The notes under the pieces: model-generated
Database searches by the model: none
The model's input: only the letters and a program-made list of their open reading frames with translations
Told to the model about the DNA's origin: nothing
Shown here: positions 36,791-64,000 of the stretch, piece after piece
How the letters are laid out: every line of letters starts with the position of its first letter
Numbering within the stretch: the stretch's first letter is position 1
Position numbers and translations under genes: made by a program
NCBI RefSeq assembly: GCF_963675165.1
Contig: NC_087393.1
Location: forward strand, 955,002 to 1,019,001
DNA length: 64,000 bases
Direction: 5' to 3'
Origin: Halichondria panicea
Taxonomy: Eukaryota > Porifera > Demospongiae > Suberitida > Halichondriidae

Positions 36791-37245
36791 ATTGGTACTG
36801 CATATACTTCAAGACAGTTAGCTCCTTAAGTTCTCACCGAGGTACGTAGGAAATGTTGTTTCCTTGTACTTTTTGTAGCAACAAGCTGTACTGTGAGGGC
36901 TGCATCCTGTACGTACATCTATCAGCCCCACCCCGTACCCCCTCCTCAGAGCAACTTTGACCTGCTAAATAAAGGGGCGTGGTTTACAGTCTGCTTGAAG
37001 TACGTCCCTGGATCCTCTAGCCTCTGCCTCTAGCCTCTGCCTCTAGCCTGAGCCTCTCCCACATGCACAGTAAAGATACTGGGGTAAGCATGCCTACTGA
37101 TACTGACCCTATTTCTAACAGTTTTAAAAGAGCGGTACATTTAATTTGTAGCATAGTTCCATGTTTAAGTACTGACCTGGCACATGCTGCACTATACTAT
37201 AGATCTACTCCTACAGTTCCTTAATTTTCCCTACAGATATTTGTC

Positions 37246-37931
37246 ATGGAGAAGCGTGCTCTGGTGATCCTTGCCCCAGGGGCTGAAGAGATGGAGACAG
37301 TCATTAGCACCGATGTCCTCCGTCGCGCAAAGATTAATGTCACCCTCGCTGGACTGGACTCAGCCGAACCCGTTATTTGCAGCAGGAATGTATGCATTGT
37401 GCCCGACATGTCTCTGGACGACGCTGTATTGAGGGGCCCCTATGATATCGTGGTTTTGCCTGGGGGGCTTGGAGGCTCAAAACGATTGGCTGACTCGGAA
37501 AAAGTTAAGAGTGTCCTCATATCGCAGGAGTCTGCTGGAGGTTTTGTGGCTGCAGTCTGTGCTGCACCTAGTGCTCTACTCTCACATGGAATATCGAAGG
37601 TACAACTGACTAATAGATTTTTAATGGTGACATTGTATTTTTACAATTAGATCGTTCAATCAAGCATGAATATTACTTGTATATACGGGTATTACCATCA
37701 CTTTTATCCTCCCAGGGCAAGCAGATTACCTCCCACCCCTGTGTGAAGAAAGAGCTGGAGGCTAGCGGACAGTACAGCTATTCTGAGGCTCGTGTAGTTA
37801 GAGACGGGACAGTGATCACCAGTCGAGGACCAGGCAGCTGTTTCGAGTTTGCTCTGGCCATTGTGACAGCTCTGGTGGGAGAGGAGGTTGCCAAGGAGAT
37901 AGCTGGACCAATGATGTTGCCAACTGTTTAG
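37246..37931 (+). CDS. PARK7: DJ-1/PARK7 protein (copy I, intact)
   Basis: Two exons, 37246-37599 and 37716-37931, give 189 aa, the same length as human DJ-1. The protein is a DJ-1/PfpI-fold redox-sensing chaperone/glyoxalase-type protein. Visible landmarks: [19 protein letters not shown] with the conserved Glu (E18 position), the nucleophile-elbow Cys in FVAAVCAAP (C106 position), [20 protein letters not shown] with the conserved His, and [18 protein letters not shown]. An acceptor-like ctacag at 37231-37236 suggests a 5' UTR intron. It lies divergently from array member C (455 bp apart). A broken duplicate lies at 58277-58956. Confidence 0.96.
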
Positions 37932-38174
37932 CTTACTTTGAGTTGTCACACACCTGCTCAACTTTGTTAGTGGAATACGTTAATTCAAGCAGCCTATTAA
38001 ATTCTCTTGAACTTCTATATTTTTTGTGGCATGCAAAAATGTATCGTGATAATTTAAATTCATAATTCATAATTTATAACATCACTTTGATCACAATATA
38101 TTTGCACACTCAGTACAGTGGTTTTCCATACCTTTACAGGCTTATACTCCAAGAGCACTGCAACCACTATATGT

Positions 38175-38226
38175 AGTAGCCTATATAAGATGGCACAGTA
38201 TACTGTGCCATCTTATATAGGCTACT
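38175..38226. repeat. Perfect 52-bp palindrome
   Basis: agtagcctatataagatggc then acagta is followed with no loop by its exact reverse complement. Located 240 bp after DJ-1; no equivalent was seen after the DJ-1 duplicate. Confidence 0.9.
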
Positions 38227-38704
38227 GCAGACTTTCACACAACTCAAAGGGAATATGTACATACTCTACTTGCACAGCATTCAATCATCACTCCTACTCA
38301 TTTATGCGATGCTCGAGGTCAACAAGCTGCTTCCGAAAAAATCCAGCAACTCCTTCCTGTTTGGATTTGATTCACTACATATATGCAGCAGTAGTTAGAC
38401 CCGGATAAAATGTATGGATAGTAAGTACAGGCCCTCAGCTCCCTATCAAGTTTCATTGCAAAAATGAAGCAAGCAAGAAGTTAGCTGAGCTACCATCGCA
38501 ATCACTTCAGTCAGAGTCGATGTACCGTATATACACCTGGAAAATTTGGGTGAATGAGCCATTTGAACAAACTTGGCGGTTTTTAATTTAACGTCTCTAC
38601 AGCAATGACATTGTTTCCACCATTAATTGGCAGCTGCAATTTGGTAAAAATGTTCCAGGTATATAATTATAATAAGGGGTTTGGATTTTGCAGGCCACAC
38701 ATGG

Positions 38705-39899
38705 TATGGCGCTCCATTTGTTTCATTATTCAATAGTGAAAAATATTGTCAATGGCGAAATATGTTGACAATGATGTAATGGGATTGTCAATACTTGGGT
38801 TACCTATTGTCAATGATTATCCGATTCATTGTCAATAACTATCGTCATGTTTGTCAATAATTGGGTTGCCTGTTGTCAATGATTATCTGATTCATTGTCA
38901 ATAATATTGTCATGTTTGTCAATAATTGTTGGAATTATTGTCAATAATTATCATCATTATTGTCAATGATTGCTCAATTTTATTGTCAATAATATCGTCA
39001 TGTTTGTCAATAATTGTTGTCAATAATTATCATCATTATTGTCAATGATTGCTCAATTTTGTTGTCAACATTTATTGTCAATGATTGTTCAAAGTATTGC
39101 CAATAATTATTTACCCGTTTTTATTCAATGTCCCTGCTCCATTCCGGAATGGGTCACCATATTTTACTGCGCATGCGCATGAACTACCAAGAGCCACGTG
39201 GGAGGAGTTGACTCACTGTACACGTACACAAAAAGACCAGAGATTAAAGACTTACCGCAATTAACTCACGACCTCCCCAGAACACGTACTGCAGGAAGCT
39301 TTAGCAAGGGTCTTGAAATCGAATGGCAGCCAACGAGCAGGAAGCTCAGGTAAAATAACTCTGATATATATAAGCTTCCTGCAGTACGTGTTCTGGGGAG
39401 GTCGTGAGTTAATTGCAGTAAGTCTTTAATCTCTGGTCTTTTTGTGTACGTGTACAGTGAGTCAACTCCTGCCACGTGGCTCTTGGTAGTTCATGCGCAT
39501 GCGCAGTAAAATATGGTGACCCATTCCGGAATGGAGCAGGGACATCGAATAAAAAGGGGTGAAAACATCATGATAATTATTGGCAATACTTTGAACAATC
39601 ATTGACAATAAATGATGATAATTATTGACAATAAAATTGAGCAATCATTGACAATAATGATCATAATTATTGACAACAATTATTGACAAACATGACGATA
39701 TTATTGACAATGAATCAGATAATCATTGACAACAGGCAACCCAATTATTGACAACATCACGATAGTTTATTGACAATGAATCAGATAATTATTGACAATA
39801 GGCACCCAATTATTGACAATCACATTACATCATTGTCAACATATTTCGCCATTGACAATATTTTTCACTATTGAATAATGAAACAAATGGAGCGCCATA
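38705..39899. mobile_element. 1.2-kb foldback transposon with internal tandem repeats
   Basis: Outer ends are tatggcgctccatttgtttc and the inverse. Inverted arms run from 38705 to about 39301 and from about 39372 to 39899, with a ~70-bp spacer. Both arms carry many copies of a ttattgtcaataat-like unit, and both contain ggaatgggtcaccatatttt and ctcacgacctccccagaaca. The left arm is longer because it has more units. No ORF of substance. Its right edge cuts off a pseudogene copy of the seven-helix gene's first exon. Confidence 0.88.
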
Positions 39900-39902
39900 T
39901 AG

Positions 39903-40099
39903 CTTATTAGTAGGAAAAAAGCTTGATGCAAATTCACCAAGTTTTGTGGCCTGTTCAAAAAAGAGCTCTCATCCTCAGGTAGTCGCTGCTATTGATACAG
40001 TCGCTGATATTGCTTGATGGCACTGCTGCAGAGCTGTCAGCTACAGCCACTCCACTACTGACAAACAAAATAGCCAGTAATTTAAACAATGCACTGCAT
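39903..40099 (-). pseudogene. Truncated third copy of the seven-helix gene's exon 1
   Basis: It matches the 5' half of exon 1 at 62672-62184 and also ~100 bp of its upstream DNA (to about 40205). It begins ATG CAG TGC ATT GTT, but an extra T makes the next codon TAA. Homology ends at the codons for FFPTNK, where the foldback element begins. Not functional. Confidence 0.82.
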
Positions 40100-40215
40100 C
40101 TCTCACTCCTGCTGTGCAAATACTGATTTACAGTACCGGTATCTACTGACTCTATTAATGTAGCAGAGTTTGCTATAAAAATACTTGATTTACCAGAATA
40201 AAAATATGATCATCA

Positions 40216-40422
40216 TACCGTATAGCTGGTAATTTTCGTGGGGTAAAATATTCGTGGTTTTCGTGGTTGGAGGTCTGACCACGAATATTTTACCCACGAA
40301 TGAAGCGACCTTGCCTACCTTTACCTACAATCCAAGCAGCAACCACGAAAATATTATCCACGAAATGTCTCATTGCTGAACCACGAATATTTTGTCCCCC
40401 GAAAATTACCCGCTATACGGTA
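40216..40422. mobile_element. MITE, taccgtatagc family
   Basis: Ends taccgtatagctggtaattt and aaaattacccgctatacggta in inverse orientation. Inner repeats of ccacgaatattttac lie in both directions. Same terminal family as 7186-7457. Confidence 0.75.
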
Positions 40423-40440
40423 ATTATATATACATGCTAG

Positions 40441-40491
40441 TAGCCTCGATTCCAGGCCGCCCTCTGGTGAGAGGGGCTGGGATCGAGGCTA
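40441..40491. mobile_element. 51-bp mini-element of the tagcctcga (Mutator-like) family with perfect target duplication
   Basis: Starts tagcctcgattccaggcc and ends gctgggatcgaggcta. It is flanked by ACATGCTAG on both sides (40432-40440 and 40492-40500). Confidence 0.88.
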
Positions 40492-40923
40492 ACATGCTAG
40501 CTACTTTGAGGTTAATTAGAGACGACAGTGATCACATGCACCACTGTAGGCCTTGCTCAAAATTTTGCCTATTAGTCTAGTCTCCAAGTGTCATGCATTT
40601 TACCTAGTCTTTCCCATTAGTCTCAAAATCATCAAGAGAATTATACTGCAACATCGCAGACACTTCTATATATAATCTTCTAAAGAACTATTATTGGTGA
40701 AAGAAATCTTTAAATTTGCCATTCGTTGCTAACTCTTCACACACTTGCTCAACTTTGTTTTTCTAACAACCTACTTGTATATTGAATTTCCAAATTTTTT
40801 TGTGGCATGCAAAATGTAGTATTTTGTAACATCACCTTGATCACACAAAAATTAATTAATTATTCAGTTACATTCACGCTCAATGTGGAAGTAGAAAATA
40901 AAGCTTAGGATCATAATTATTCA

Positions 40924-43900
40924 CTAACTCTTCTCTTTTTTTTTTAGGAGAGGGGTAGTTTCACTAGTAGTAGTACTACTAGCCTTAAGTTTGTCCCCAC
41001 GTCCATTTCTCTTGATCTTCTGGACAATTCCTTCTTCCATTAACTGGAAAATTTGAGTCATATGTTCCTCTATTCTGTTCCTTATAACTGTATCATTGTT
41101 ATCTTTTCCAATGCATTGCATAATCCTTGTCCAGAATATCCCTGAGATTGACGCAAAGAGAGAGGGGATGAGAGCCGCAAGGAAGGTCAGTATGCCGCGA
41201 TTGTTTCGGTACTCCTGGTTCAAAGTTATATAGATGTACATGAATGAAACAAAAACACCAATACCAGCGGCCAGTACACAAACCAAAGCAATAAGGAGAA
41301 AAAAGTAACATAAACATACACACCATGTGATATTATTGTTTTTCTGTACAATTTTTGGCTGATCGTCCATACCATTTTCTGGTTGTTGTTCTTCCAAAGA
41401 GCTGAAGGTTGGTGTTGGATTATTTTGTGCTTTTGTTTGTGCGTTTTTCGGTGTTGCAATACGGTCGGTCGGACCTCTTGCTGGTGGTAGTGTTTTGTGG
41501 AAAACTTTAAGGATCACAGCAAAGAATGATATCAGTGCAAAGAGGCTTGTAACGTACAAGAGAAGAAGTGAGCCGGTTTCCACAGGAGCAGCTATGGCTC
41601 CAATGAACATATAAATAGAATTGAAAAGTGCAAGTTGAGTGAACAACGTTACAGCAAAAATAGCAAAACCATGAAGGAAGATCTTTCCACATATCAAACC
41701 AGTATTCTTACAGTCCCGAAAGCCAAAACAGTTTATATTATGCCAAGAATTTTCAATACTGTTGAACCGAAAAACAACAACTATTGCTGTTCCGATGTCT
41801 GCCGCAAGAAAAATTCCCATACCAATAGCCATCAGGATAAAAGCTGTGTAGATATCACTATAGTGTGTAGGTGGCGTTGTCAAGCCATTGATAAGAGCCA
41901 AGATATTGCAGAAGATTAACAATAGAATAATCGGCACAATCAATACAAGAGTTGCCCAGACAAAGTATCGTAGATTTTGTTCAGTCATTTTTCTTTTAAA
42001 TCGTTCATACATACTAGCCAATAGCAAAGGAATGGAAAACACACTTGATATCTCCAACAGTCCAAAGGCAATACACAACAGTGTCCTTAAACGCAAGAAG
42101 TTGGGAACTTCATCAAATATACAGTAGTCACTGGGATTGCTTGAATTAAAAACGTACACTGAGTATCCACTTTCAATTGTCGAGTCAATTCCCTTTGTTA
42201 TCACAGAATTACGATGTATAGCATACGTGAGAAGCTGCAGTAGTGTGGTGTGGAATAAGATAAACCCTTTTAAACTAGAGCACTAAAGTGCAAACCCTCG
42301 GCTGGTGACATGACATGATTATAAAGAAACCAGAAGAGTTATATAATGCAGTGCATGTAGTGATGAATAATTATCATGTATGACTTATTGAACTGTGTAG
42401 CACAGCAACTCAGGAGCTAAACCAGACTGGAGGCATGCTAAAACATTTGAGAACAGGATATTTATATGCACTGTAGACTAGGATCACAGCAAAGAAGCCT
42501 GGAGTCTCATGCAGAGAAGTATGGCTCCTGGAGTAGGATCCCAGAGTCACAGAGACAAACCAGACACAATTCTAGCTTTCTATTCTTTTCCACAAACAAT
42601 CAGTAATTATTGGCTTATGTTTCGAATAATAACCGCACCTAATTATAATGGTTTATGTTTCAAATAATAGCCGCGTTTAGTAGTAGAAGAGGAAGAGGGA
42701 TATTGGTACGGAAGTACCCTCGTGTAACATCCATGTTACCCGCGGTTTAATCGAGGCTGTGTCAACAAGCTAAAGCTGTAGATGGGCGTGGTCCGGCTAG
42801 GCCAAGCTGATGGCCTATTTCTAGTTCTACACACAGTGTACCACAAGCATATATGCTCAGTCTGTGCAACTCACTCATATTTAAAGGTCTATACCTATTT
42901 TAGCAGTTATAACCAGCACACTTACATGTTTTAGCAATACAAGACTATAAATAGCAGCTGTTTGCCTAAAACTTTCCTTCTTCTATCTATGCTGGAATGT
43001 CCCTTTTTACTGGGTGTGCATGGTCAGTCATTAGCAAGTACAACACATGGCTCACAGACTGGGCGTGTTGAAAAAGATTATGTCTCGAGAAAACACAATT
43101 TTCTTATTTTGAGCGAGTTACCCAGCAAAATAGCCTCGTTTATAGGGCGTAACACGGATAGTTTTCGAGGTTTTACTGCAGATTCAATGTAAAGTGAACT
43201 GCTTCCGTTACCAATCCCTCTTACTCTTCTATCTATGGTAGTACGCAAAAAGCTTCTTAGGTTTAGCTCGCCTTTTCTGCGAAACAAAGACTTCTTTGCA
43301 AAATCTGCCAAATTTTAAGCCTTAGTTTTAATGCTACAAGTTTCCCTACGTACAAATTGTGATACCTAAATCACCAGGTAAGCCAAACTGAGCGACAGAC
43401 ACACACACACACACAGACAGACTGACAGACTACTGTAACCGAGGCCGCCTATACGCGCCTCGGGTTAATAATTGAATTAAGTCTATTTGAGTTGAGCCCC
43501 AGAAGTTATGTCAAGTATGTTATAGTTATTGACTGGTTGACTAGTAATTATGGCTTATAACCAACCAATGCCGAGGGCGTAGCCCGAGGCTGAGGTTGGT
43601 TATAAACCATAATTACTAGGCAACCAGTCAACAACTGATTTATTTACTGCAAAAACAGCAAAACAGTCATTTGAACATCAATGGAGACAGTCAAGCTTGC
43701 TCTCCCAGCCACTTGTGCCTCAGAATATGCAGTTAGAACAGTTACAGCTGTCAAATATAAGAGCTAGCTACTTCTCCAAGCAGCTAGATTCTACTGGAAG
43801 CCATAAACTTTGACCAGACCCGCCCACCAATATCAGCAGCTGTCGTTTTGCATTGCACAAGTCTACGTCTACCAACACTGCACTGTACTTAGCCTCGGTC

Positions 43901-46334
43901 CCAGGCCGATTTTTCTTTAATAGAACTAAGCGTTCAATTGGAGACGGATCAGCCTGGGGTCGAGGCTACACTGTACTGTACTCCTCTACCTCTGGCCACA
44001 GCTAGCCTTGACTAGAAACACAGAGCAAGAATTGAACTGCAGTGTTTCAGGCCTCATGAACATGTAATAAGTAGCTTAGACTGCTAGCTAGCTCAGGTCA
44101 ATATGACAATAGCACAAAACATAGTCTACAAAAACTTTTGTGTGCTGTATTGCTATTTTACTGTGTACAAATTGTCAAGATGATTCAAAAGTTGAATAGT
44201 GCTTGTAGGAAGTAAAAATATGAGCCATATTCCATACTTCCCTGGGGGAAGTAAAATATGGCTCATATTCACTGGAAATCACCTTGGATACGGAGTGAAT
44301 CAGTAAATAAATATAATTATAGCTCATTTAGGCTGTAATAAATTATGGTTGGCAAGTATGCCAGAGACTTTATAACTTGTTGAAGCGTAATAGAAGAGCT
44401 TTTCAAAGAATCCGATGGTATAATTATGAAACTTCGAAATTGAGTAAACTATGACAAGTTATGACAACGTTATGGAGGCTCAACTCAACTCAAAATTAAT
44501 ATACTTTAGTGTATACATATTTAAGCCGCTCAATGTATATAGCTATACCTACCGTATCAAGAGTACATGAAGGGAGTAAGCAAACTATTCTATATACACA
44601 CCATATAATAATATTATGTTGTTCTCTCTATGTCCAAACACTTGTATACTAAACGGTGTGGGTTAATTGACATGACCATGTATGGCTAAGGCACGCGGGC
44701 TATGAATGTGGTAGAGTAATAATGTAGCATTAGTAGCTGCATCTTGACAAGGAAATGTCTACAATAATCAAAAACTCTACCACATGTGCTTGTGCAATAC
44801 ATGTACCGTATAGCGGGAAATTTTCACGGGTGCTATTTGGCTCCAGAGCCCTCAGTAGAAATTTTTGTGGGTTCTAATATTCGCCTTTCAATGCCACCCA
44901 CCAATAACTTCGCATATGAAATACTGGTGCGTGGCTAGTTAATTTTAGCGTATATTGCTCTGCTCTCGAAAGACGCGAAATTGCACCTCTCATGAATCCT
45001 ATAGGCCCTCTTAACTATCCTCAAACTGCTCTAACATTAATTTTTGCGGTCTGATTCTTTTTTCTAGCCGTTGTCAAGGCATTTACACAAATTTGAGTAC
45101 TATTATTGTAGCTCATCAGCATAATTATTCTTTTGCAGGTAGGCCTTCCTAACCACTCCAAGTGAACTAGCTGTCTGAATCTTAATACCGGTCCGAAATA
45201 GGTATGTAATTTCATACAATGCGTTCACAACTTATAATATTTTTCACCATTATTTTAGCTATGAAGTACAAGTTCAAAGGACTGTAGTAAAGACTCATAA
45301 TTAACTGGATACATGCATGCAAGTTTTGCAAACACTTCTGAACACTTTTGTTTCATTTTCAGTTACTATAATTATGCTATAGCGCTATATAGACTCGTCA
45401 TTATTTTTGTTATTGTTTATTGTTTTATGAGATTGAAATGGTGTTAATTGGAATGATTAATAACACGTGTCAAAATGACCCGCTAGAAGTGGGTCAAATC
45501 GACACACCTTCAATTTGACACACGTGTATGTCATTTGGAGGGACAATCAAATGACACGCGTGTCAGTGTTGAAACAACCCACTTGTTTTTACAGTGTAAC
45601 CACACTGTTTGAGTGTGGTTGTATATAGAGCCACTTGAGATGTGGGTGTTTTATACACACATGCATGGTATGCAGAAAGTCAGACACAACAATTTATACC
45701 TAAATTTATACCTACAAAATATCCCATGTACGCTTGCACCAAAGGCTGAAACTAATTAACAATTTAATCCGCGAAACGTTTCTTTTATAGATCTATATAT
45801 ACCCTCGAAATATACCCACAATACGGTGCAAACTTTAGCACTTACATTAGCTGTCAGATTGTTGAGTAGATGATGACCAGTGCTGTTAGTCACTTTGCAA
45901 TAGTCACTTGGTCCTGAATCTGGGTTAGTTACATTGTCATCACTTGAAAAGCCACAAATCGGGTCAAGAGTAATATCTGTGCAACGTGTCTTGACGTTGT
46001 AAGCAAATAGTGAGAGATAATGAAGTAAGTCACTGCGAATCAGCATCAAGACAGACGAGTCAAGCCATTGATAGGTCACTGTATCGTTAGAGTTAATAAA
46101 GTGGTAGGTGACATTAATCGAAATACTCGCTTGTTTATTAGTAGGAAAGAAAGCTCGATGCAAATTCACCAAGTTTTGTGACCTGTTCAGAAGAGATTTT
46201 TCAATCTTCAGGTAATCGCTGCTATCGATACAGTCGCTGATTTTGCTTGAAGGCACTGCTGCAGAGCTGTCAGCTGCTGTAGCCACTCCACTGCTGACAA
46301 ACAAAATAGCTAGTAATATATCAATGCACTGCAT
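40924..46334 (-). CDS. Unrecognised ectodomain plus seven-helix membrane protein, copy I
   Basis: Exon 1 is 46334-45846 (163 codons) and exon 2 is 42234-40924 (436 codons plus stop), joined in phase 0, 599 aa. Exon 1 has a signal peptide (MQCIDILLAILFVSSGVATA) and a ~140-residue ectodomain with several N-glycosylation sequons and Cys residues (DCIDSSDYLKIEKSLLNRSQ; PICGFSSDD). Exon 2 has about seven hydrophobic helices, for example TLLCIAFGLLEISSVFSIPL, FVWATLVLIVPIILLLIFCN, GSLLLLYVTSLFALISFFAV and GILTFLAALIPSLFASISGI, with a long loop between helices 5 and 6 and a polar C-tail. No GPCR or channel motif was recognised. Copy II at 59124-62672 keeps the same exon lengths and splice phases, which supports the model. 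The 3.6-kb intron contains hairpins and MITEs. Confidence 0.78.
43531..43634. repeat. Imperfect inverted repeat (~100 bp) in the seven-helix intron
   Basis: gactggttgactagtaatta then tggcttataaccaacc pairs with ggttggttataaaccataat then tactaggcaaccagtc around gccgagggcgtagcccgaggc. Probably a MITE. A separate hairpin (ccatattccatacttcccc with an inverse partner) lies at about 44215-44275. Confidence 0.65.
43890..43968. mobile_element. 79-bp element of the tagcctcga family with 9-bp target duplication
   Basis: Starts tagcctcggtcccaggcc and ends cctggggtcgaggcta. It is flanked by CACTGTACT at 43881-43889 and 43969-43977. Inside the intron of the seven-helix gene copy I. Confidence 0.85.
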
Positions 46335-47384
46335 CTCTTCACTGCAAATACTGCTTTACACTACCTGCATGTAGAATTATAGTCACAGGATCACATGTTT
46401 GCTATAAAAACTAGATTTACTATATCAACAATCTTAATTAAATTACTGTGGGGACCCTTAAGGCTGTGTACAGCTTGCATAGACCTATAGTCTCCAATCC
46501 AGGCCCATTAAAATAAGGCCTGGTATACCTATTGCATGGGTAATAGTGCACATGCGCTTCAATTACCTAGTACTACGATTGTAAAACCTTAGCGTATTTT
46601 AATCGACCTGGAATTGAGGCTACTCACTATAGCTATAATAAAGGTCATGCAATCAGTAAAAATCGTCTCAATCCGAGGCTAGCATATATAGACCTTGCAA
46701 AATACTAGATGCATGCTAGCATAATTATGAGACTAATGTAGTTACTATATATGCATGCACTGCATGAACACTGAGAATTATGCCAGCCTATAATAATTGT
46801 ATAAATTATACCCGCATAAAAAAGATCAAAATGTAGAGAACCATCTATCTGATCAACAGCAGGTACTATTGTTTCAACTGTTGAAGCTGATCAAGTCCCA
46901 ATGGCTTTGTTTTACTAGATCAATCAATCTTGCTGGTTGACCCTCACAGGCTTCAGAAACACTATCACATTCACCACAGCAATGTGTGTATGCTTTTCTT
47001 TGTGTTTGTCACAGTACATTGTCTTTATGCTCAAACTCTTACTCACACATTTAGTACTTGAACAAGGTCTTGGTTCTACCCTCTCTCCAGCTCCACTCAG
47101 TGTGGTTTTAATTCAGTGCAGCATTTGCATTCTTCAGACCTGCATGCAGGTAGACATTGTAGCACAGTGAAAATAATGCATGAAAACTATAACTATAACT
47201 ATAGGGTGTATGCCATAGTATTATTATATTCACAGGAGTGCTTATGTACTCCTGATATTCACAAATTAATGTGACAATCAAGAGTTCATAATGAACTCTT
47301 GGTACAATTAAAAATCCCGCACATGCGCACAAAAGGAATCCCCAGGGAATTTCCCCCTTGGTCTAAGTCAGCATCTTGGTGGGC
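46335..47384. other. Promoter-side spacer of the seven-helix gene, copy I
   Basis: No gene seen. It contains an aged tagcctc-family element at about 46488-46622 (inverted ggcctggta/cctggaattgaggcta), AT-rich DNA, and at 47310-47384 a stretch (ccccagggaatttccccctt) matching 62890-62925 upstream of copy II. Copy II's divergent spacer is only 359 bp. Confidence 0.5.
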
Positions 47385-48491
47385 TAGCCTCGATCCCAGG
47401 CCGAGTTTTCGCTTTTATAACGGTTAGGCGAACAACTGGGCCTGGTACTAGTTGTCTGCGCATGCGTCAGTCGTTCGTATTCTGACGAATGGATATTCTC
47501 GTTCACTTTCGTGACATTTATATTCTTGTACTATCGTGTACTAGAAGTCAGTTCCCGTTTTATCATTATTGGAATCGATTGGAATGGCTCTTAGTTGAAG
47601 CTTCTCTCTTCTCTGAAGCTTATTCTGAAGACTGAACAACAAGGGAAGAGGTATAAAGCTTTGTCAAGCTTGTTAAGGTCAGATATTTTTGTGTGGGCCC
47701 TATGGCTATGCTATCAAGTGTTGTTCATGTTTGGCAAGATCTACCGGTACGTAGGTAGACTATATATAGTTTCATCATTAATATGGTGGATCAAGTGAAG
47801 AGTGTGAGCTAGAGAACTTGGTGCTGCCATCATCAGCTCGTCGACAATGACACTATAACCGAGAAATTTAATATGTATAGATCTACACATAATTATTTAA
47901 AATGTCTACTTCTCTGTACAGGATCTAGGAGCAATGGCTAATATCCAGCTATCCCAACAGTGCTCCTCTTGGCTATACTAACGGACGAGACTGGACAGTT
48001 TGAGGTAAGGGTTTAACCGTCTTTGGTTTCTTTTAATATTGTCCTATACTCACAGGACTGGAGTATGACCTGCTCATTCGAGCGTTGCTGGGTAGCTCAG
48101 AGACATCAAGAGAATCTATGTTTTCTCAAGCAAAATTTAACTGAGTTACGAGTTGGGGCCTAGAATCACAGAGGTCCAGCAGCCTGCTAAATCTTTTTGA
48201 AATGTAATTTGAAGGCATTCAATCATCCTGAAGTTGCCCTGGGTCACTGTAATTGTGCTGCAGCACAACTGGAAACTCCCCAGGCCTTTGTGAAGCAGCT
48301 CCCTATGTGCATCTTTTGTGTACTCACTCTGTGCATTTTCTGTGTACAAATTTCTATTATTGATTTATTAAATATTTTTGCCGACCACAAATATACAATG
48401 AAAATTTGACGCATGCGCAGACAACTAGTACCAGGCCCAGTTGTTTGCCTAACCGTTATAAAAGCGAAAACTCGGCCTGGGATCGAGGCTA
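47385..48491. mobile_element. 1.1-kb Mutator-like element with ~85-bp TIRs
   Basis: The TIR starts tagcctcgatcccaggccga and extends past actagttgtctgcgcatgcg; the inverse lies at 48410-48491. Flanked by a 10-bp direct repeat CTTGGTGGGC (47375-47384 and 48492-48501). The interior (splice-like motifs, short open stretches) has no recognised transposase, so it is non-autonomous. A sister copy in the opposite internal orientation is at 52006-53094. Confidence 0.85.
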
Positions 48492-48577
48492 CTTGGTGGG
48501 CGTGTTGTGATAAAGCTAGTTGACTGCACTGACTGTACTGATAGACTAAGGCTGTGTGAACATCGGGAGATGACCTA

Positions 48578-48650
48578 TGGAGTTTAAATTGCTAATCACT
48601 GCTCTGTTAATGCTCTCAATCTTCTGTACAAAAGCTGACCAAAGTATAGG
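48578..48650 (+). pseudogene. Exon 1 of the divergent secreted gene, copy I (broken gene)
   Basis: ATGGAGTTT encodes MEFKLLITALLMLSIFCTKA then DQ. This parallels the signal-peptide exon of the right-edge gene (TLLMLSIFCAQTYAEADQ at 63032-63113), with a donor-like gtatag at the same place. The matching second exon is not found until 53686, is frameshifted, and is separated by three transposons, so the gene copy is dead. Confidence 0.7.
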
Positions 48651-53257: not shown

Positions 53258-53685
53258 GGCTAGGAGTTGAAAGCCTACGAGAAAAACACTGAGCTTGAAG
53301 CCATTATTGCACAGAGCTAGAGGGTCATGAAACCATGGTCGAAGGTCACATTCACTTAAATGAGCATTTAGGCTGTTAATTTCGACAAGGTGTTCCAAAG
53401 GTCCTGTTGCTAGTCTGGAGAGTTCTAGTATTACATCCTTACAACTCTCTCCATGAATTAACCTACGTCGCCTTCTGTCTGGGGCTAATCCTTTCTACTA
53501 CAGTAGTAACAATCGAATCCATGCTGCCGTGGCGGTTAGCTATAATGATATTCATGTAGACTATCATTTTATTCACACTTGTGGTCAATTAAATGTCCAA
53601 GAAATTCCTGGACACACTTGAACCAAACCTCAATGTGAGTTTGACCAGACTCAAGCTTTTAGGTTGAGGCGGGTATTCGAGACTA

Positions 53686-53963
53686 ACCCCTCAGGCTGCC
53701 TTCACCATCGCCTCAAGCAACCCCCTAACCTCACAGTCCGATCGCGAGCCCACCAGTTACACTTTCCCCAACCACCCTCTCTCTCCCGGATGTAGACGCC
53801 ATAATTATTTCACGATGTCGTGAGCTGCCTATATTATTCGAAGAGCAAGATTCGCTGGTTGGTATTTTTATTTCTCTGAACAATGCGATCGGATTCATGT
53901 GCTTTGAAGACGTTGGAAAAGAGCTAGTGCACCAGACAACACATATAATGACATTCCCACATC
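53686..53963 (+). pseudogene. Exon 2 remnant of the secreted gene, copy I
   Basis: It matches 63336-63594 closely: PTSYTFPNHPLSLPGC, then PILFEEQDSLVG and CFEDVGKELVHQTTHIMTFP. A 4-bp insertion after the cgccat codons shifts frame into a TGA stop, and homology ends abruptly after MTFPH. Together with 48578-48650 this is the decayed copy of the divergent secreted gene. Confidence 0.85.
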
Positions 53964-54602
53964 TCCATTCCATTCCCGATACAGCTCCGGCTGGTCAACC
54001 ACCATACTCACTTTAGAAAGACTTTATTTAGATCACCCCACAAGATTTTTATGAATGTACATCAGTTTTACATCTTATTTTTTAATTGTACAATGTCATA
54101 AATGCACGCCAATAACAAATTTGGTTAACAGCATAAAAACATAAAAACAATGCCACATGATCATAGATATTTTACAGTGCACATTAAAATAAAATAAAAA
54201 AAATACAATTTTACAAAACTAGCAAAGAAGAGACTGGTCTAGCTCCTGTAAGTTAGTACAAATGAAAAGTATACTATTGTAGTACAGTAGACTCGTTAAT
54301 CCGGTCACCCTTGGGACCAGGCAGCTTGGCCGGAATAGCGAGGTGGCTGTAGCTCAGGAAATAGCCGCGGCTTAAAAACAACCTTACCTCGAATCTAATG
54401 ACTACTTTTGCGGTTCTTGTCTCGAGGATAATGTAGGATAGTATTGAGTACAGAGTGCACTATCTCTATTGACTGGGAGTGAATAGTGAATCATTTGTTC
54501 TCTATTTAAGTGTAATTCAATTTTATTTGATAAACCACACCCAAAACGTCATATCCGGCCGTAATACACGTATAAAATTACATTGAAAACCTTGTTTGGG
54601 AC

Positions 54603-55337
54603 TAGCCTCCTTCGCAGCCTTTCCTTTTTCTGTTCTTTGTCACAGAAGAGAAAATTGGAGGAACAAAGAAAGAAAGAAGGAAGCAACTAAGAAAAAGGAG
54701 AGCCTGCCTTGCTAAGTCGCGTGATCCCCTACTGACGTAGACAAATTTTAACGAGCGTGGGCGAGAGAAAACCTCAATAACTGTCCTCCCACACAGTACT
54801 TGGAGCGCATTTACCAGGAACATAATCTGGTACAGTAGTACAGTGCAGTAGAGTCAGCCTTCGTGAGACCTTTAGTCAGTAGAGGAAGTATGAAAGACTA
54901 GAGTAGAGTAGACTATACTGCTGTAATAATTATATCTACTAATCAAGTGGGTCTGTTCTAAACTCAGGAAAAAAAACTGAGCTAAATTTAGATATTTAGT
55001 CTCTTTACTCTTTAGTCTTTACTAGGTAAGCCCTCGTCTACGATGTCTCCACGCTTGATTCTGGCTTACTATCTACTAATAGCTTTTATTTAGAGTTTGC
55101 AATGCGTAGGCATGCTGTAGCTTTTTGCTCTGTCAGGCTCCGCCCAGCTAGTGATTGCCCACGTTCATTTTCACTCGTCTACCACTCGTCTACCGTCACG
55201 CGACTTAGCAAGGCAGGCTCTCCTTTTTCTTAGTCTCTTCCTTCTTTCTTTCTTTGTTCCTCCAATTTGTCCCGTATTTTATCTTATTGAACTACAGTGA
55301 CAAAGAACAGAAAAAGGAGAGGCTGCAAAGGAGGCTA
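54603..55337. mobile_element. 735-bp element with tagcctccttcgcagcc ends nested in the pogo-like MITE
   Basis: Terminal repeats tagcctccttcgcagccttt to tgttctttgtcac, with further inverted blocks (gccttgctaagtcgcgtga). The flanking 9-bp GTTTGGGAC repeats at 54594-54602 and 55338-55346. The terminal TAGCCTC and 9-bp duplication link it to the Mutator-like family. Confidence 0.88.
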
Positions 55338-55362
55338 GTTTGGGACAGCCAGCACTGGCCGG

Positions 55363-57684
55363 TGTCAGAGGAATGAATGACTCCCCGGTGGGAGTGACCC
55401 CCCGGTCATTCCTGCCTAAGGTGTGGGTGACTCCCCTTTGCGCATGTTTGTTCCCGCCAATGTGACCTGTTTCCATCGATGTAATTCGGTATATAGTAGC
55501 AGGAGTACATGCATTCATGCACTCCAATGCATGTACTCCTCATAGTAGAGAAGGAAGAGCCATGCAGGATGAAGAAGAGCAAGGTTAGTAGTAGCAAGGT
55601 AGAAATGAAGCAAGTGTTCATCCTGTAGTATAGACAGCAAGTGACAGCTGGAATGTAGACCTATACATAATAGTTATAGGCTGAGTCCAAGGTCTCTATG
55701 GGGTTTTGAGACCCGAAGGCCCGAGGCTGTAGCATCTTGAGCGTAGTGAGGGTGCTACTAAGCGCCTAAGGGTTGGTTGAAAATGGTAGCCTCTATAAAT
55801 AACAAGAAGCACACCAAAGCTGCTGATGCAGCTGACTGGAGGATACGTGTGCGCAGCGATGAGGAGAAATCAAGAATCCTCGAAGATTGCCATGCCAGAC
55901 GCTTCCTCCTCTCACAAGCCAGACGTCCCCTCTTCTCACAAGCCAGATGCCCTCTCCTCTCACAAGCCAGATGCTCCCTCCTCTCGCAAGCGAGACGCCC
56001 CCTTCTATCGTTAAGCTGCATCCTCTATGGAGCCACCTTTGAAGAAGCAAAGGACTACTCAGTCTGTAACAAGAAAGGTATATAGTTATATATACTTGTT
56101 AACAGGAGCTATCGTTAATTACAATTATTATTATGTGCACACTATACCGTTCATTATAATTATTGTGTGCACATTCGACAGAATTCAAGCTACTGGGTGA
56201 AGGATTTGGACCTGAGAACGGGAGACAAGGATGTAATTCTTGCTGAGAGTGGGATGCTTTCTGACCGTCATATGTATGCTGCCCACAAACTAATGAGAAT
56301 GCAATTTCCAAATATTGAAGGCTGCATGCTACTCTACTCTTCTGGTTCAGAAGATGTCCTTTCATGCAGTCACTAGTATAGTGAAGCCACAGGTATAATT
56401 TCTACTTAGAACTTAATTTAATAGTAGTATTATTATAATTATAGTATACATAATTATACCTCATCCTTGGCCGTATAATTATAATATTATTATAATTATA
56501 TCATACTCGTGCAGATATTCTTTGTAACAGAGAGGCATCACTGGATTGCGACAGCACTCATCAAGGGGGAACTTTTCCTCTTTGATAGCTGCTTCCAATA
56601 TGGGAAAGAACTGGAGCCAAGTGCTGAGCTGCAAATCGCACAAATGTATAAGCCTTTAATAGCCCGCACAATGGGCTAGCTGTTACTGTCTGTGGCCTCC
56701 ATTCAACAGCAGAGCAGTGGCAGTAACAACTGTGGTTTGTTTGCAATTGCCGCTGCATACCACGCATTGCAAGGAGACAATCTGGATACCATCACCCTAA
56801 ATGAAGACAAAATGAGGCCACATGCACCTTGTGCGTTGCTTTGAAAATGAGAAACTCAGAAGATTTCCAAAGTCAAAAGATGTTAGTAGCCGCAAGAGAC
56901 CAGAAAGATTTTCCAGCATATATAGTAATTACGATATACTGCCCTTGTCTCCGCCCTGACTGTTATGATGAAATGGTCCAGTGTGATATACGTGTAATGT
57001 GTGGTATCATTATAAATGTGTTCGTATTAAAGTATCTCCACTTGGAGATTGGTTCTGTCCTATATATATATAATTATAGTTGTAGATCTAAATAGAATTT
57101 TTTAGCATTTCGTTATCTTCCACTAGCTGTTTTTGTTTATACACTGTAATTTGCACTGTTGTTTTGTTTGTTTTTCATGCACTGTAGATCTAGTTATTGT
57201 GATGGATGTTGTTGTATTATAAGTTTTGCTTTACAGTGACGACCGTGAGACATGTGAAAATGTGAACAGAGTGTACAATGCAGTATAAGTACTATATAGG
57301 TACTAACTGATATGATAGCATAGCTAGACTGAACCAGTTTACAGTAAGGAACAGCTGTAATTATAGTCAATACTATATAACATTACAATACTATATAAAC
57401 AGGCCTCTCACAGATAGCATGCATGCAGTCCTGATAACAGTCTCTTGAGCTTGATTGTATAGTCACACTGCATGTGACAGGTATTGAGGATGTACTTAGT
57501 ATAGCCCTGAAGTCTCTTTAGCTCTATGGATGTTCGTATATAAATTTCGGGGGAGTCATTCGTGACTAGGAGTCAGTGACCGGGGGAGTCATTTATACCT
57601 AGGCGTGAGTGACCGGGAGTCACTGGTGACTAGGTAGGAGTGACCGGGAGTCATTATTTAGGGGAGTCATTCATTCCTATGACA
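55363..57684. mobile_element. Ginger-like DNA transposon relic with Ulp1 protease
   Basis: TIRs TGTCAGAGGAATGAATGACT then CCCC at the left and its near-exact inverse ending TGACA at the right. Degenerate gtgaccgggagtca-type subterminal repeats lie at both ends (55381-55440, 57545-57670). 4-bp flanks CCGG (55359-55362) and CCAG (57685-57688); the empty MITE at 61670-62102 has a single CCGG there. TGT termini, a 4-bp duplication and a Ulp1 domain fit Ginger elements. An H2C2-like trace (SDEEKSRILEDCHA at about 55855) may be the remains of an integrase. Confidence 0.72.
55783..56900 (+). pseudogene. Ulp1/C48-type cysteine protease pseudogene of a transposon
   Basis: Pieces in order: DAADWRIRVRSDEEKSRILE then DCHA (integrase zinc-finger-like start), about 4.5 copies of a 24-bp repeat coding SSHKPDAP in another frame (55894-56005), LSDRHMYAAHKLMRMQFPNI (56260 region), ERHHWIATALIKGELFLFDS and SNNCGLFAIAAAYHALQG. 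HHW supplies the catalytic His, FDS the Asp, and NNCGLF the nucleophile Cys of the Ulp1 fold. A TAG stop after IARTMG precedes the Cys motif, and a frameshift follows DKMR (next piece HLVRCFENEKLRRFPKSKD), so no full protease can be made. Confidence 0.78.
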
Positions 57685-58270
57685 CCAGTATAACCGAAAT
57701 AGTGAGTGGCCGTACTTCAGGGTGAGTTTTGTGCAGTAAACATATAGCTAGCATTCCGTGCCAAGCCAAATGGCCGGTATATCGAGGTGGCCGTTCTTCA
57801 GGGAGCCGGAATAGCGAGAGTCTACTGTACATGCTCCTCAAAAATCAGACCTTAACTAGCACAAACTCAAAAAATCAATGCCTAACACATTTGCTACTAA
57901 AAATTTACAAAATTCTGTGTATCTCAGAACCTACTAACAGCCTGCACTTCTGCTGGAGCTCAAAAGATGCATGTGCAAGGTAATGAAGTACTTGCACAAC
58001 AAATTTCAGATCTTAAAGTACGTTCCTGGATCCTCTAGCCTAGCTAGCTCTCTCTGGCTCTAGCTAGCCTGAGCCTCTCCCACATGCACAGTAAAGATAC
58101 TGGGGTAAGCATGCCTACTGATACTGACCCTCTTTCTAACAGTTTTAAAAGAGCACTAGTCTACATTTAATTTGTAGCATACCGTAGTTCCATGTTTAAG
58201 TACTGACCTGGCACATGCTGCACTATACTATAGATGTACTTGTACAGTTCCTTAATCTTCCCTACAGATA
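56990..58270. other. Gene-poor stretch before the DJ-1 duplicate
   Basis: AT-rich DNA of the Ginger-like element to 57684, then the right end of the pogo-like MITE. From about 58015 it becomes the upstream region shared with DJ-1 copy I (37010-37245), including cctgagcctctcccacatgc. No gene seen. Confidence 0.5.
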
Positions 58271-58276
58271 TTTGTC

Positions 58277-58956
58277 ATGGAGAAGCGTGCTCTGGTGATC
58301 CTTGCCCCAGGGGCTGAAGAGATGGAGACAGTCATTAGCACCGATGTCCTCCGTCGTGCGAAGATTAATGTCACCCTCGCTAGCTCTGGACTGGACTCAG
58401 CCGAACCCGTTATTTGCAGCAGGAATGTACGCATTGTGCCCGACATGTCTCTGGACGACGCTGTATTGAGGGGCCCCTATGATATCGTGGTTTTGCCTGG
58501 GGGGCTTGGAGGCTCAAAACGGTTGGCTGACTCGGAAAAAGTTAAGAGTGTCCTCGTATCGCAAGAGTCTGCTGGAGGTTTTGTGGCTGCAGTCTGTGCT
58601 GCACCTATAGTGCTCTACTCTCACATGGAATATCGAAGGTACAACTGACTAATAGATTTTTAATGGTGATATTGTATTTTTACAATTAGATCGTTAAGCA
58701 TGAATATTACTTGTATATAGGGGTTACCATCACTTTTATCCTCCCAGGGCAAGCAGATTACCTCCCACCCCTGTGTGAATGAGGAGCTGGAGGCTAGTGG
58801 ACAGTACAGCTACTCTGAGGCTCGTGTGATTAGAGAGTGATCACCAGTCAAGGACCAGGCAGCTGTTTCGAGTTTGCTCTGGCCATTGTGACAGCTCTGG
58901 TGGGAGAGGAGGTTGCCAAAGAGATAGCTGGACCAATGATGTTGCCAACTGTTTAG
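58277..58956 (+). pseudogene. DJ-1/PARK7 duplicate (copy II, inactivated)
   Basis: Nearly identical to 37246-37931, including ~250 bp upstream. A 2-bp insertion (TA) in the codons after AAVCAAP (about 58605) shifts frame before the exon end. In the second exon (from 58748) a 7-bp deletion relative to copy I gives RVIRE then TGA. A two-codon insertion (ASSGLDS for AGLDS) is also present. It reaches its relic stop at 58954-58956, only ~170 bp from the next gene. Confidence 0.9.
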
Positions 58957-59123
58957 CTGTTACATATTTATTACATGGTTGCTGCACATTATTGGTCAAC
59001 TTCGTAATTTGGAAAGACAAAATTACATGCACACAATAAGAATATGGGCATATATAAACTGAAAGAAACAGAGGGAGGAGGGTTGCAGTTAATCAGCAGT
59101 AACTATCATAATAGTATCAATAA

Positions 59124-62100
59124 CTATGAGTCCGTATGATGAACAAGTACTCGTTCATCTGCTCTGCCAGTCTTTTTTTTTAGTATTGTTGCTGTACCAT
59201 ATTTTGTAGATCTGCTACCTGAACCAGTTTTTCTCTTTTCCGTAGGATTAATGAGATGTTTTCCATGCGCTCCGCCAGTCTTGTTTTGTACCTTTGCTCC
59301 ATTACATTTTGTACCTGAGCTAGTGTTTCTTGTCGACACGGCAATCCTGCATAGATGTCTATCTATTGACACCATTTTGTTCCATATTCTTTCTTCAAAG
59401 TTCGTGTCTGTATTATTCTTGTTTCCAATGCATCCCATAACCTGCGTCCAAAATAACCCCGAGGCTGACGCAAGGAGAGAGGGCAGGAGAGCCCCAAGAA
59501 AGGTCAGTATGCCACGATTGTTTCGGTACTCCTGGTTCAATACTATATAGACGTACATGAACGTAACAAAAACACCGATACCAATGGCCAGTACACAAAC
59601 CAAAAAAACATAAGGTACAAGGCAGGTGAAACATAAACACCCACGAGCATAAGTAATTTGTACTTGTCGATTGTTTAGTTGAGCTGCTTCTCTTGGTTGA
59701 GCTGCTGCCGGTAGTGTTTTGTGGAAAACTTTAAGGATCACAGCAAAGAATGATATCAGTGCAAAGAGGCTTGTAATGTACAAGAGAAGAAGTGAGCCGG
59801 TTTCCACGGGAGCTGCTATTACTCCAATGAACACATAAATACAATTGAACAGTGCAAGTTGAGTGAACCACGTTACAGCAACAATGGTACCAACATGAAT
59901 GACGTTCTTTAGACGTATGCATTTACCTTCAGTATTCGCAAAATTTGGAAAGCCAAAACAGTTTATCTCATGCTGGGGTCCGGTAATAAAGTGGAAACGA
60001 ATCACAACATAGATCGCAGCTAGTGTGTCTACCACAGGAAAAACAACCATAGCAACAGCCATCACTACAAAGGCTGCAATTATGTCGTTAAAATTTGTTG
60101 GTGGTGTCCTCAAGCCATTGTAAATCGCATACCCATTACAGCAAAAGAGCAATAGAATGATCGGCACAATCAATATAAGAGTTGCCCAAACAAAGTATCT
60201 AAGTTTTTTTTCTTTGCCATTGTTATCAGTACTACTCATTTTCTCTTTAAACTCGTCATACATACTAGCCAATAGCAAAGGAATGGAAAACACACTCGAT
60301 ATCTCCAACAATACAAAGGCAATGCACAGCAGTCTCCTCAAAAGCAAAAAGCTGGAAACTTCATCAAATATACAATAGTCACTGGGGTTGCTATTAAAAA
60401 CGTAAACGGAGTATCCACTTTCAATTGTCGAATCAATGCCGTTTGTTATTGCTGTATTACGATGCACAGCATAAGATAAAAGCTGCAGTATGCATGTGAG
60501 ATAAATCTTATAAAGTTCAGTACAGCTTGTATATGGTGACATATTTTCACAGGTGGATTTGTTTGCGTTTTCACTGTTTAGCTCATTTTGCTGGCATTAA
60601 ATCCTGCTCAAGTTGTGAAATTATCATAGTGTTTCTATGTACTCGCAAGTGGTTTTAATGAGCATTTGCAATTTTACTCTCATTCGCAGAAATAATACTC
60701 GCGAAAATATGTCACCATATATATAAGGCCACTCCAAGTGACACTCTGGTTTCTGGTCCTGAAGTTTTTCTAATTGCATGCGGGCGGGCGGCTTTTCTCA
60801 TTATGTCATTATCAATTTTACCTTATGAATCTCATTATTTTTCAAATGAATATCATTATCACACTATTGCCTTGTACTGATAGCATTAATCTTATTCATT
60901 ACCCAAGATTGTGTAGATTATGTAGTGTTAATGAGATTCATAATCCTTATCAGTGCATGTGACGTCATGAGTCAATGTGTTTTGCCTAGCTAGCTGCTGG
61001 AACTATTATACAATATCTTTAGCAACAAAAGGGGCTGGCTTAAGCAAGGTAAGAGTAGCTGTTTAGGCCCTCAAAAGATGGAGTATGTTGTCATGATTAT
61101 GTTTCCCAAGTGGGAAGTCAATATGTGCAAAATTGTCTTAGCTATACTGGCTTCTTTAGCTCTGGCAGCCACCCTAGAGGTAGGCTATGTTGTGTATCTC
61201 AAGAATACAGTACCTGCTACTCTTCCCATTTATGATACTAGTACCTAGCAATGAGTTATTCATCTAGCCTTGTTTTTGAAGCTTGATCTTGGCATCTTCA
61301 TGGCCTCTTTTTGCAGTTTTCTTACTAAAAGTGGCATGACGTCATCATCATTTATGGGGCTAATTAGCATAATTGAATTAAGCTAATTAGTTTTTTGGAA
61401 AAAGAAAACATTGAGCTTCATGTTGAATCATCTTGATGTAGCATAAATGGTATGTTGCAAATAATACAGCAGTATGAACATTGTGTTAAATTTTGGTATT
61501 CAGACTTTGACCCGGGCCTTAAGTGCGCAGAGTTTGTACCACATGGACCATTCTGCGCATGCGTAGTAGAAATAATGAGATAAAATCCAAGAATAAAATC
61601 TGATGCGGCCGGTGGACCAGAAACCAGAGTATCACTTTACAATAATAATAATGCATTTATAATAGGCTCTACAGCAGACTCTCGTTAATCCGGTCACCCT
61701 TGGGACCATGCAGCTTGGCCGGAATAGCGAGGTGGCTGTAGCTCAGGAAATAGCTGCGGCTTAAAAACGACCTTACCTCGAATCTAATTACTACTTTTGC
61801 GGTTCTTGTCTCGAGGATAATGTAGGATAATGAATCATTTTGTTCTCTATTTAAGTGTAATTCAATTTTATTTGCTAAACCACACCCAAAACGTCATATC
61901 CGGCCGTAATACACGTATAAAATTACATTGAAAACCTTGTTAGGGACAGCCAGCACTTGCCGGTAACCGGAATAGCGAGTGGTCGTACTTCAGGGTGAGT
62001 TTTGTGCAGTAAACATATAGCTAGCATTCCGTGCCAAGCCAAATGGCCGGTATATCGAGGTGGCCGTACTTCAGGGAGCCGGAATAGCGAGAGTCTACTG

Positions 62101-62672
62101 TATATAGTTATCTATATAATTTACATACGCCACTGCTACGGACACATATAAGATCTACCTGCATGAAAACTTTCAGCACTTACATTAACCGTCAGATTGT
62201 TGAGTAGATGATGACCAGTGCTGTTAATCAGTTTGCAATAGTCACTTGGATAAGGGGTAGTTACATTGTCATCACTTGAAAAGCCACAAATTGGGTCCAG
62301 AGTGATATTTGTGCAACTTGTCTTGACATTGTATGTGAACAGTGAGAGATAATGTAGTAAGTCACTACGAATCAGCATCAAGACAGATGAGTCAAGCCAT
62401 CGATAGATCACTGTATTGTTAGAGTTAGTGAAGTGGTAGGTGACTTGAACTGAAATACTTGCTTGCTTATTAGTAGGGAAAAAAGCTTGATATAAATTCA
62501 CCAAGTTTTGCGGCCTGTTCAGAAGGGAGCTCTCAATCCTTAGGTAGTCGCTGCTATCGATACAGTCGGTGATATTGCTGATATTGCTTGAAGGCACTGC
62601 TGCAGAGCTGTCAGCTACAGCCACTCCACTGCTGACAAACAAAACAGCCAGTAATTTAACAATGCACTGCAT
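59124..62672 (-). CDS. Unrecognised ectodomain plus seven-helix membrane protein, copy II
   Basis: Exon 1 is 62672-62184 (163 codons, the same length as copy I) and exon 2 is 60482-59124 (452 codons plus stop), phase 0, 615 aa. Signal peptide MQCIVKLLAVLFVSSGVAVA. The ectodomain has NVT/NST/NLT sequons and conserved PICGFSSDDNVT. Helices match copy I (LLCIAFVLLEISSVFSIPLL; YFVWATLILIVPIILLLFCC; GVFVTFMYVYIVLNQEYRNN; GILTFLGALLPSLLASASGL). The loop between helices 5 and 6 is shorter than in copy I, and the C-tail is longer and basic (NPTEKRKTGSGSRSTKYG). The intron holds a pogo-like MITE (61670-62102). The gene starts 359 bp from the divergent secreted gene. Family not recognised. Confidence 0.8.
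61670..62102. mobile_element. Intact 433-bp pogo/Tigger-like MITE
   Basis: Ends tacagcagactctcgttaat and cgagagtctactgta, TA borders. Contains ttaatccggtcacccttggg. It is the uninterrupted version of 54283-57829. Lies in the intron of seven-helix gene copy II. Confidence 0.85.
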
Positions 62673-63031
62673 CTCTAGCTCTCACTCCTGCTGTCCAAAT
62701 ACTGATACAGTATACCGGTATCTACTTACTCTATTAAATGCAGCAGAGTTTGCTATAAAAAATACTTGATTTACTAGATTTACCAGAATAAAAATAATGA
62801 TCATTAATTTGCACATGCGCAGTTCGCGCAGCATGCAGTCGAATTGTCCCTTGGAATTTCCCTTGACCACAGACTGTGAAAATTGTCCCAGGGATTTCCC
62901 TTGACAGTCAGCATTTTGTGGGTGTGTCATTCTAAGTTCTGTAGCTAGGCTAGCAAGCCACCTTAATTACATACATAGACTTCGTACGTACATGTAGTCT
63001 GCTAGAGAAAGAGACTAGACATGCTCCCTGA
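62673..63031. promoter_or_regulatory. Divergent intergenic region between the seven-helix and secreted genes
   Basis: 359 bp separate the two start codons, which point away from each other. It contains a near-duplicate pair gtcccttggaatttcccttg (62847) and gtcccagggatttcccttga (62885). The same arrangement existed in copy I before a Mutator-like element entered at 47385. Co-regulation is inferred, not shown. Confidence 0.45.
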
Positions 63032-64000
63032 ATGACCAAAATGTTAATCGCTAGATCTACCCTGTTGATGCTCTCAATCTTCTGCGCGCAAACCTATGCA
63101 GAAGCTGACCAAGGTATCATGTCACTGAGAATAGACCATAGGCATAGATACTATAAATTTATATTTATACTTATAGTATCTATGAATAGACCATGTATCC
63201 CGTGTCTTTATAACTGCGTTATGATACTAAATAACTAACTGACTTACTCTCAATCTCCTGTGTAGGTGTATCTAAAGTGGCCATTACTATCAATCAGTAC
63301 CTAATCAGAGCCTCCAACAAACAAGCTACCCCTCAGGCTGCCCTCACCATCGCCTCAACCAAACCCCTAACCTCACTGTCTGAGCCCACCAGTTATACTT
63401 TCCCCAACCACCCTCTCTCTCCCGGATGTGGACGCCATATTTCACGATGTCGTGAGCTGCCTATATTATTTGAAGAGCAAGATTCGCTGGTTGGCATTTT
63501 GACCCCTCTGAACAATGCGATCGGATTCATGTGCTTTGAAGACGTTGGAAAAGAGCTAGTACACCAGACAACACATATAATGACATTCCCACATCACGAC
63601 GATTGTATACCTATAACCATCGTGAGGCACAAGACGAAGCATTACGTCGTGTGCATTGATTCTTCTATGCGAGTAATTTCATGCTTGATCAACCTCAACT
63701 TCGACAATATTACCCAGTCCTATCTCCAATGTGCTTCCCTCGGCAGTTTCCCCCCCTCAGTGGACTTCAGCGAAATCTCAAACTTTGTTTACGTCGGTGG
63801 TGACCTGTTCATATTTGCTGTTCAAAATATTGTCTATGAGTACTACCCGGATAGATTGTCCCTAGCGTCCGTGAGTGGGTGTACACTCCCTCACCTTGCT
63901 CACAATGTTCGACTAGTTTACAATGACATAGACACAGTTCTAATGTATTACAACACTAACGAAGGAGCTGATATCGTTGTGGTTTTCAATTTAGCAAACG
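63032..64000 (+). CDS. Unrecognised secreted protein, divergent partner of the seven-helix gene (incomplete)
   Basis: Exon 1 is 63032-63113 (signal peptide, MTKMLIARSTLLMLSIFCAQ). After a 152-bp intron, exon 2 runs open from 63266 to the window end (245 codons). The phase-1 join gives EADQGVSKVAITINQYLIRA. Later stretches include PGCGRHISRCRELPILFEEQ, TFPHHDDCIPITIVRHKTKH, DLFIFAVQNIVYEYYPDRLS and NDIDTVLMYYNTNEGADIVV. Recurring LFIFAVQNxVYEY/VLMYYNTN-like strands could be beta-propeller blades, but no family was recognised. The ORF lacks an ATG in exon 2 and is easy to overlook. A broken copy lies at 48578-48650 and 53686-53963. The C-terminus, and any membrane anchor, is outside the window. 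Confidence 0.72.

Follow-up and report, generated by a model that had tools for sequence, protein, structure and literature searches.

The window, by which we mean the whole 64,000-nucleotide stretch of Halichondria panicea DNA analysed here (C17:955,002-1,019,001), contains two blocks that lie on one 5.7-Mb contig of a 131-Mb genome assembled in 39 contigs. The comparison of block I (37.0-54.0 kb) with block II (58.0-63.6 kb) revealed similar pieces in a common order and orientation, as a preliminary description of this DNA had reported. The features discussed are as follows, the seven-helix genes being called receptor I and receptor II in view of the putative function considered below.

37246..37599, plus strand: exon A of DJ-1 copy I, an intact PARK7-type coding exon.
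37716..37931, plus strand: exon B of DJ-1 copy I, an intact coding exon including the stop codon.
39902..40213, minus strand: probable remnant (312 bp) of another receptor II copy, with the promoter side and the 5' part of exon 1, frameshifted.
40924..42234, minus strand: predicted exon 2 of receptor I, an open frame with an acceptor at the family position, about seven hydrophobic stretches and a cytoplasmic tail.
45846..46334, minus strand: predicted exon 1 of receptor I, with a donor (AAT|GTAAGT) placed as elsewhere in the family, a signal peptide assigned by eye and an ectodomain; the intron is 3,611 bp long.
53686..53963, plus strand: fragment of the single-pass membrane gene in block I, with 4-bp and 6-bp differences and a broken frame.
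58277..58638, plus strand: exon A of DJ-1 copy II, with a 6-bp in-frame and a 2-bp frameshifting insertion.
58748..58956, plus strand: exon B of DJ-1 copy II, with a 7-bp deletion.
59124..60482, minus strand: exon 2 of receptor II, predicted from a splice site and an open frame.
62184..62672, minus strand: predicted exon 1 of receptor II, separated from exon 2 by an intron of 1,701 bp.
63032..63113, plus strand: predicted exon 1 of single-pass membrane gene II, with a signal peptide assigned by eye.
63266..64000 in the window and on to 64,583, plus strand: predicted exon 2 of the same gene, with the ectodomain and a membrane-spanning stretch.
64,641-64,700 and ~64,731-65,577, outside the window, plus strand: predicted later exons of the same gene, a small exon and a proline-rich tail placed by eye.

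The gene structures of the receptors and of the single-pass gene are predictions made from open frames and splice sites of consensus type. A further candidate piece of the blocks, 54,283-54,607 against 61,670-61,951, was dropped because it is a dispersed repeat (at least 41 matches; 40 of the 1,374 first-look candidates were scored); the intron of receptor II holds a dispersed repeat at ~61,670-62,102. Elsewhere in the window, three ORF copies on the minus strand (23413-23841, 32654-33118 and 36386-36808) encode a small secreted cysteine-containing protein and sit in repeated stretches (21.5-23.7, 32.2-33.1 and 34.4-36.7 kb) with a similarity of 90-97%. A Pfam search at E 0.001 gave no match for two of these ORFs and only a sub-threshold HNH match (E 0.035) for the third. 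Other ORFs matched a PI3/PI4-kinase domain (12886-13332, plus strand), gamma-glutamyltranspeptidase (14982-15398, minus strand) and TRAF/MATH (26991-28109, plus strand).

DJ-1 copy I is complete (37,246-37,931), as previously described, and its spliced product of 189 aa has a DJ-1/PfpI domain over its full length, with animal DJ-1 proteins as relatives. It aligned without gaps over residues 2-186 (185 residues, E 2.4e-64) with DJ-1 chain 3b36 of the PDB, which we take to be human, and the Glu, Cys and His positions are kept. Copy I is most likely an ordinary protein of the established PARK7 family. Since copy I aligns with the PDB chain without gaps, the three coding indels that separate the two copies belong to copy II (58,277-58,956). 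They are the 2-bp (TA) insertion and the 7-bp deletion already noted in the preliminary description, and an in-frame 6-bp insertion that it did not mention; copy II, being frameshifted, differs from the family in lacking an intact frame. The Pfam search of the genome returned five DJ-1 matches, three of them at the two C17 loci and two on C8. The C8 matches were considered as a second PARK7 gene and rejected, since they represent a different type of DJ-1/PfpI protein (28% identity in the longer match), which leaves copy I as the only complete PARK7-type DJ-1 found in the genome by this search.

The DJ-1 pieces of the two blocks (36,994-37,933 and 58,012-58,958) are 92.7% identical with gaps counted. 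The copies differ at 15/563 coding and 25/363 noncoding sites (p 0.0027), and within the coding sequence at 9/139 silent and 6/419 replacement sites (p 0.0036); in the intron, 2/109 aligned sites differ, as counted by eye on the alignment. The relative scarcity of coding and replacement changes suggests, with modest support, that DJ-1 was under constraint for part of the time since the duplication.

The third element in block II is predicted to be a single-pass membrane gene that extends from 63,032 to ~65,577, beyond the window. The gene had been described as secreted and open; the frame is indeed open, but it continues past position 64,000, and the gene would also encode a membrane-spanning segment and a tail. 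A blastn comparison of an extended block II (57,801-75,000) with 36,501-56,500 showed that block I keeps ~278 bp of this gene, with 91.4% identity between 53,686-53,963 and 63,328-63,595. The 4-bp frameshift previously assigned to copy I is present as a 4-bp difference, together with one of 6 bp; of the gene described as broken, block I shows only this short piece. A genome search with the exon 2 protein found the single-pass gene in full once, and the other two matches both corresponded to the block I fragment. In block II, the start codons of receptor II and the single-pass gene lie head to head, 360 bp apart (62672-63032), and it is possible that the two genes share a promoter region. The interval from receptor I to the fragment of the membrane gene contains two inverted copies of a 1.1-kb element (47385-48491 and 52006-53095), 96.7% alike and each with 85-bp terminal inverted repeats; an ORF piece located between them (48,807-49,343) had a sub-threshold match to a DEAD helicase.

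The seven-helix ORFs (40,924-42,282 in block I and 59,124-60,596 in block II, both on the minus strand) had been taken as whole genes that stay open in both blocks. Both frames are open, but each ORF appears to be only exon 2 of a two-exon gene. An ORF with a signal peptide assigned by eye lies upstream of it in both blocks (45,756-46,355 and 62,136-62,681, minus strand) and, on the evidence of splice sites and reading frames, provides exon 1, with the signal peptide and ectodomain; the preliminary description had left this exon unjoined. The donor AAT|GTAAGT and a CAG acceptor were found at the same codon in 12/12 family loci examined, with introns of 47-3,611 bp. The patterns for this check were drawn up after inspection of the translations of the loci; two family searches listed 29 and 16 matches, and the count excludes C17:1076666, C17:1047585, C11:6526410 and C3:2546934. 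The upstream ORF might instead be a separate gene for a secreted protein adjoining the seven-helix gene, since it has its own signal peptide and stays open past the donor in block I. The in-phase junction of exon 1 to the seven-helix frame at all 12 loci, across introns of such different lengths, makes this reading very improbable.

Several of the 12 loci are broken: the exon 2 frame is interrupted in C11b and C11c and in pieces in C17e, and C11b has no open exon 1 frame up to the donor. The exon 1 frame of C15 has no in-frame signal peptide, and C17f and C17g, also among the 12, are distant members (27% identity for the seven-helix match). The codon counts for exon 2 leave out C11b, C11c and C17e, those for exon 1 leave out C11b, and both leave out C17f and C17g. 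A tandem pair of family members, C14:5168157-5171657 (L017) and C14:5174474-5178001 (L016), is young, with five silent and no replacement changes in exon 1 and dN 0.019 and dS 0.023 in exon 2.

We infer that the seven-helix proteins are putative cell-surface receptors. They resemble GPCR-like receptors with a large N-terminal ectodomain: a signal peptide was recognised by eye, exon 1 carries N-glycosylation motifs (five to seven in each of the six members tested), and the hydropathy windows of exon 2, grouped by eye, gave about seven hydrophobic stretches; the TM5-TM6 loop and the tail vary between receptors. However, unlike such receptors, receptors I and II gave no match above cut-off in Pfam/NCBIfam and none among PDB sequences at a threshold of E 1. 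In the Pfam scan, each of the two exon 2 ORFs had one sub-threshold match, neither of them to a 7tm family, and when the receptor exons and the single-pass gene were compared with the PDB and with family profiles, the matches were weak only. The genome contains at least 22 matches to 7tm_1, at least 19 of them over its cut-off. No match was confirmed in pattern-based searches for exon 1 of receptor II in bacterial and archaeal genome contigs and for exon 2 in viral contigs. The AlphaFold2 model of the ectodomain had a mean pLDDT of 32.6.

Divergence between the blocks is uneven: at the DNA level it is ~3-7% for DJ-1 and the third element and 10-18% for the two seven-helix genes. The Nei-Gojobori silent divergence was 0.067 for DJ-1 (bootstrap 0.029-0.114), and that between receptors I and II was 0.291 (0.175-0.428) for exon 1 and 0.531 (0.42-0.66) for exon 2. 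In counts of silent sites, both exon 2 (102/270; Fisher p 5e-13) and exon 1 (26/106; p 8e-5) exceed DJ-1 (9/139). The receptors are thus several-fold more diverged at silent sites overall, with the exception of one segment of exon 2, between TM4 and TM5 (0.137), where the silent count (5/40) is indistinguishable from that of DJ-1 (p 0.31). Silent divergence reached 0.69 in the TM2-TM4 segment and the TM5-TM6 loop and was undefined in the tail. This patchiness (0.137-0.69) makes sequence exchange between receptors I and II possible. The region from TM2 to TM4 is hypervariable between the two exons (59124-60482 and 40924-42234), with dN 0.42 and dS 0.69, and dN in the neighbouring segments is 0.09 and 0.035.

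The preliminary description suggested that purifying selection had kept both membrane proteins, and proposed dN/dS as a check. Pairwise silent and replacement differences between receptors I and II (26/106 and 29/374 in exon 1; 102/270 and 218/906 in exon 2) indicate constraint since the two genes separated. However, with silent divergence far above that of DJ-1, the two open frames tell us little about what was retained after the duplication, and the claim is unsupported as it was stated. Receptors I and II are probably not duplicates of this event, and receptor I would be an older paralogue.

The phylogenies are divided on the exact kinship of receptors I and II. In the exon 2 tree, receptor II grouped with the C11a paralogue (88/90), to which it is nearer (silent divergence 0.326) than to receptor I; a grouping of receptors I and II was not rejected (AU p 0.141). 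In the exon 1 tree, receptors I and II grouped together (87/98), and the grouping of receptor II with C11a alone was rejected (p 0.001), but not that with C11a and C11c (p 0.267). The introns of the two receptors (3,611 and 1,701 bp) gave no blastn match to each other at E 1e-3.

We interpret the short stretch at 39,902-40,213 as the equivalent of receptor II in block I. On its promoter side there are 9/113 differences from receptor II and 36/105 from receptor I; two C11 promoters, which look unrelated, differ from it at 51/113 and 48/113. The coding part differs from receptor II at 11/197 and from receptor I at 18/197 sites, and on coding sequence alone it grouped with receptor II at only 53%. 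The value against C11a (85/197) was set aside, as it reflects a difference in exon 1 length. A genome search with the promoter stretch of receptor II found, beyond the query and a 42-base match inside the query, the remnant only. The remnant is directly flanked by a palindromic repeat (38,705-39,899) and by another inverted-repeat element (40,216-40,422), and dispersed repeat sequence occurs in the stretch that follows DJ-1 copy I.

The duplicated three-gene block of the preliminary description would correspond to one older duplication that made both blocks, receptors included; DJ-1 and the flanking pieces would then have been homogenised later by gene conversion or have evolved slowly, and the receptors rapidly. 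The common order and orientation of the blocks, the exon 1 tree, the failure of the exon 2 tree to reject a pairing of receptors I and II, and the patchy silent divergence of the receptors are all consistent with such a history. However, it leaves unexplained a separate remnant with the promoter side of receptor II, and the introns and promoters of the receptors cannot be aligned, yet the noncoding sequence of DJ-1 differs at only 25/363 sites. We consider it unlikely. The duplication itself stands; the seven-helix pair is probably not its product (silent divergence 0.29/0.53 against 0.067).

An assembly artefact, in which two divergent haplotypes were joined end to end, was raised as a caution in the same description, and some animals are highly heterozygous. 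The two blocks differ in content, however, with receptor I and the remnant in one and receptor II in the other, and both lie within a single 5.7-Mb contig. Moreover, the searches with the DJ-1 family, exon 2 of the single-pass gene and the receptor II promoter stretch revealed no further copy elsewhere. This explanation therefore seems still less probable than an older duplication of the whole block.

We favour a history, to which we give a probability of about three in four, in which second copies arose of DJ-1, receptor II and the single-pass gene, and all three later fell back to a single working copy; receptor I would be an older paralogue. The duplicated unit would have consisted of DJ-1 (plus strand), receptor II (minus strand) and the single-pass membrane gene (plus strand), an arrangement that spans ~7.6 kb in block II, and would have been duplicated within one chromosome, in what we infer to be a single event. 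The DJ-1 intron and flank and the promoter side of receptor II are common to both blocks, as expected for a segmental duplication. Both copies would then have been eroded by deletions, small indels and repeat insertions. In block I, all that would be left of receptor II is the promoter side with the beginning of exon 1, and of the membrane gene ~278 bp from exon 2, DJ-1 remaining whole; in block II, small indels would have broken DJ-1, and receptor II and the single-pass gene would have stayed open. Receptor I, which now lies inside block I, would not have arisen through this duplication; it would be an older member of the receptor-like family with two exons and seven helices. A point against this history is that DJ-1 might appear younger than the block through gene conversion at a later time.

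Each block has lost different genes, DJ-1 being broken in block II and only fragments of receptor II and of the single-pass gene being left in block I. The reciprocal loss proposed previously is borne out, and is fuller than was claimed given the receptor II remnant; what is not supported is the retention of both receptors as duplicates. As in other cases of tandem or segmental duplication with reciprocal gene loss, linked copies have lost different genes through small indels and deletions, and repeats are found at the edges. The present case differs in its small scale and in the older paralogue that, located within one copy, mimics a retained duplicate.

The duplication event itself is ordinary genome turnover. 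It shows how synteny at the level of blocks can mislead, since an old paralogue in a young duplicated block resembles a retained duplicate; here, only silent-site divergence and the 312-bp remnant separate the two. More speculatively, and rather doubtfully at present, the seven-helix genes may represent an undescribed, fast-turning receptor class of this lineage, combining a conserved exon for a glycosylated ectodomain, an invariant intron and a seven-helix exon with a hypervariable TM2-TM4 region. Receptor II would then share a head-to-head promoter with a single-pass receptor, the two being perhaps co-expressed partners whose turnover dragged DJ-1 along. If the receptor family were confirmed, it would merit characterisation as a multi-copy membrane family for which the libraries searched have no profile.
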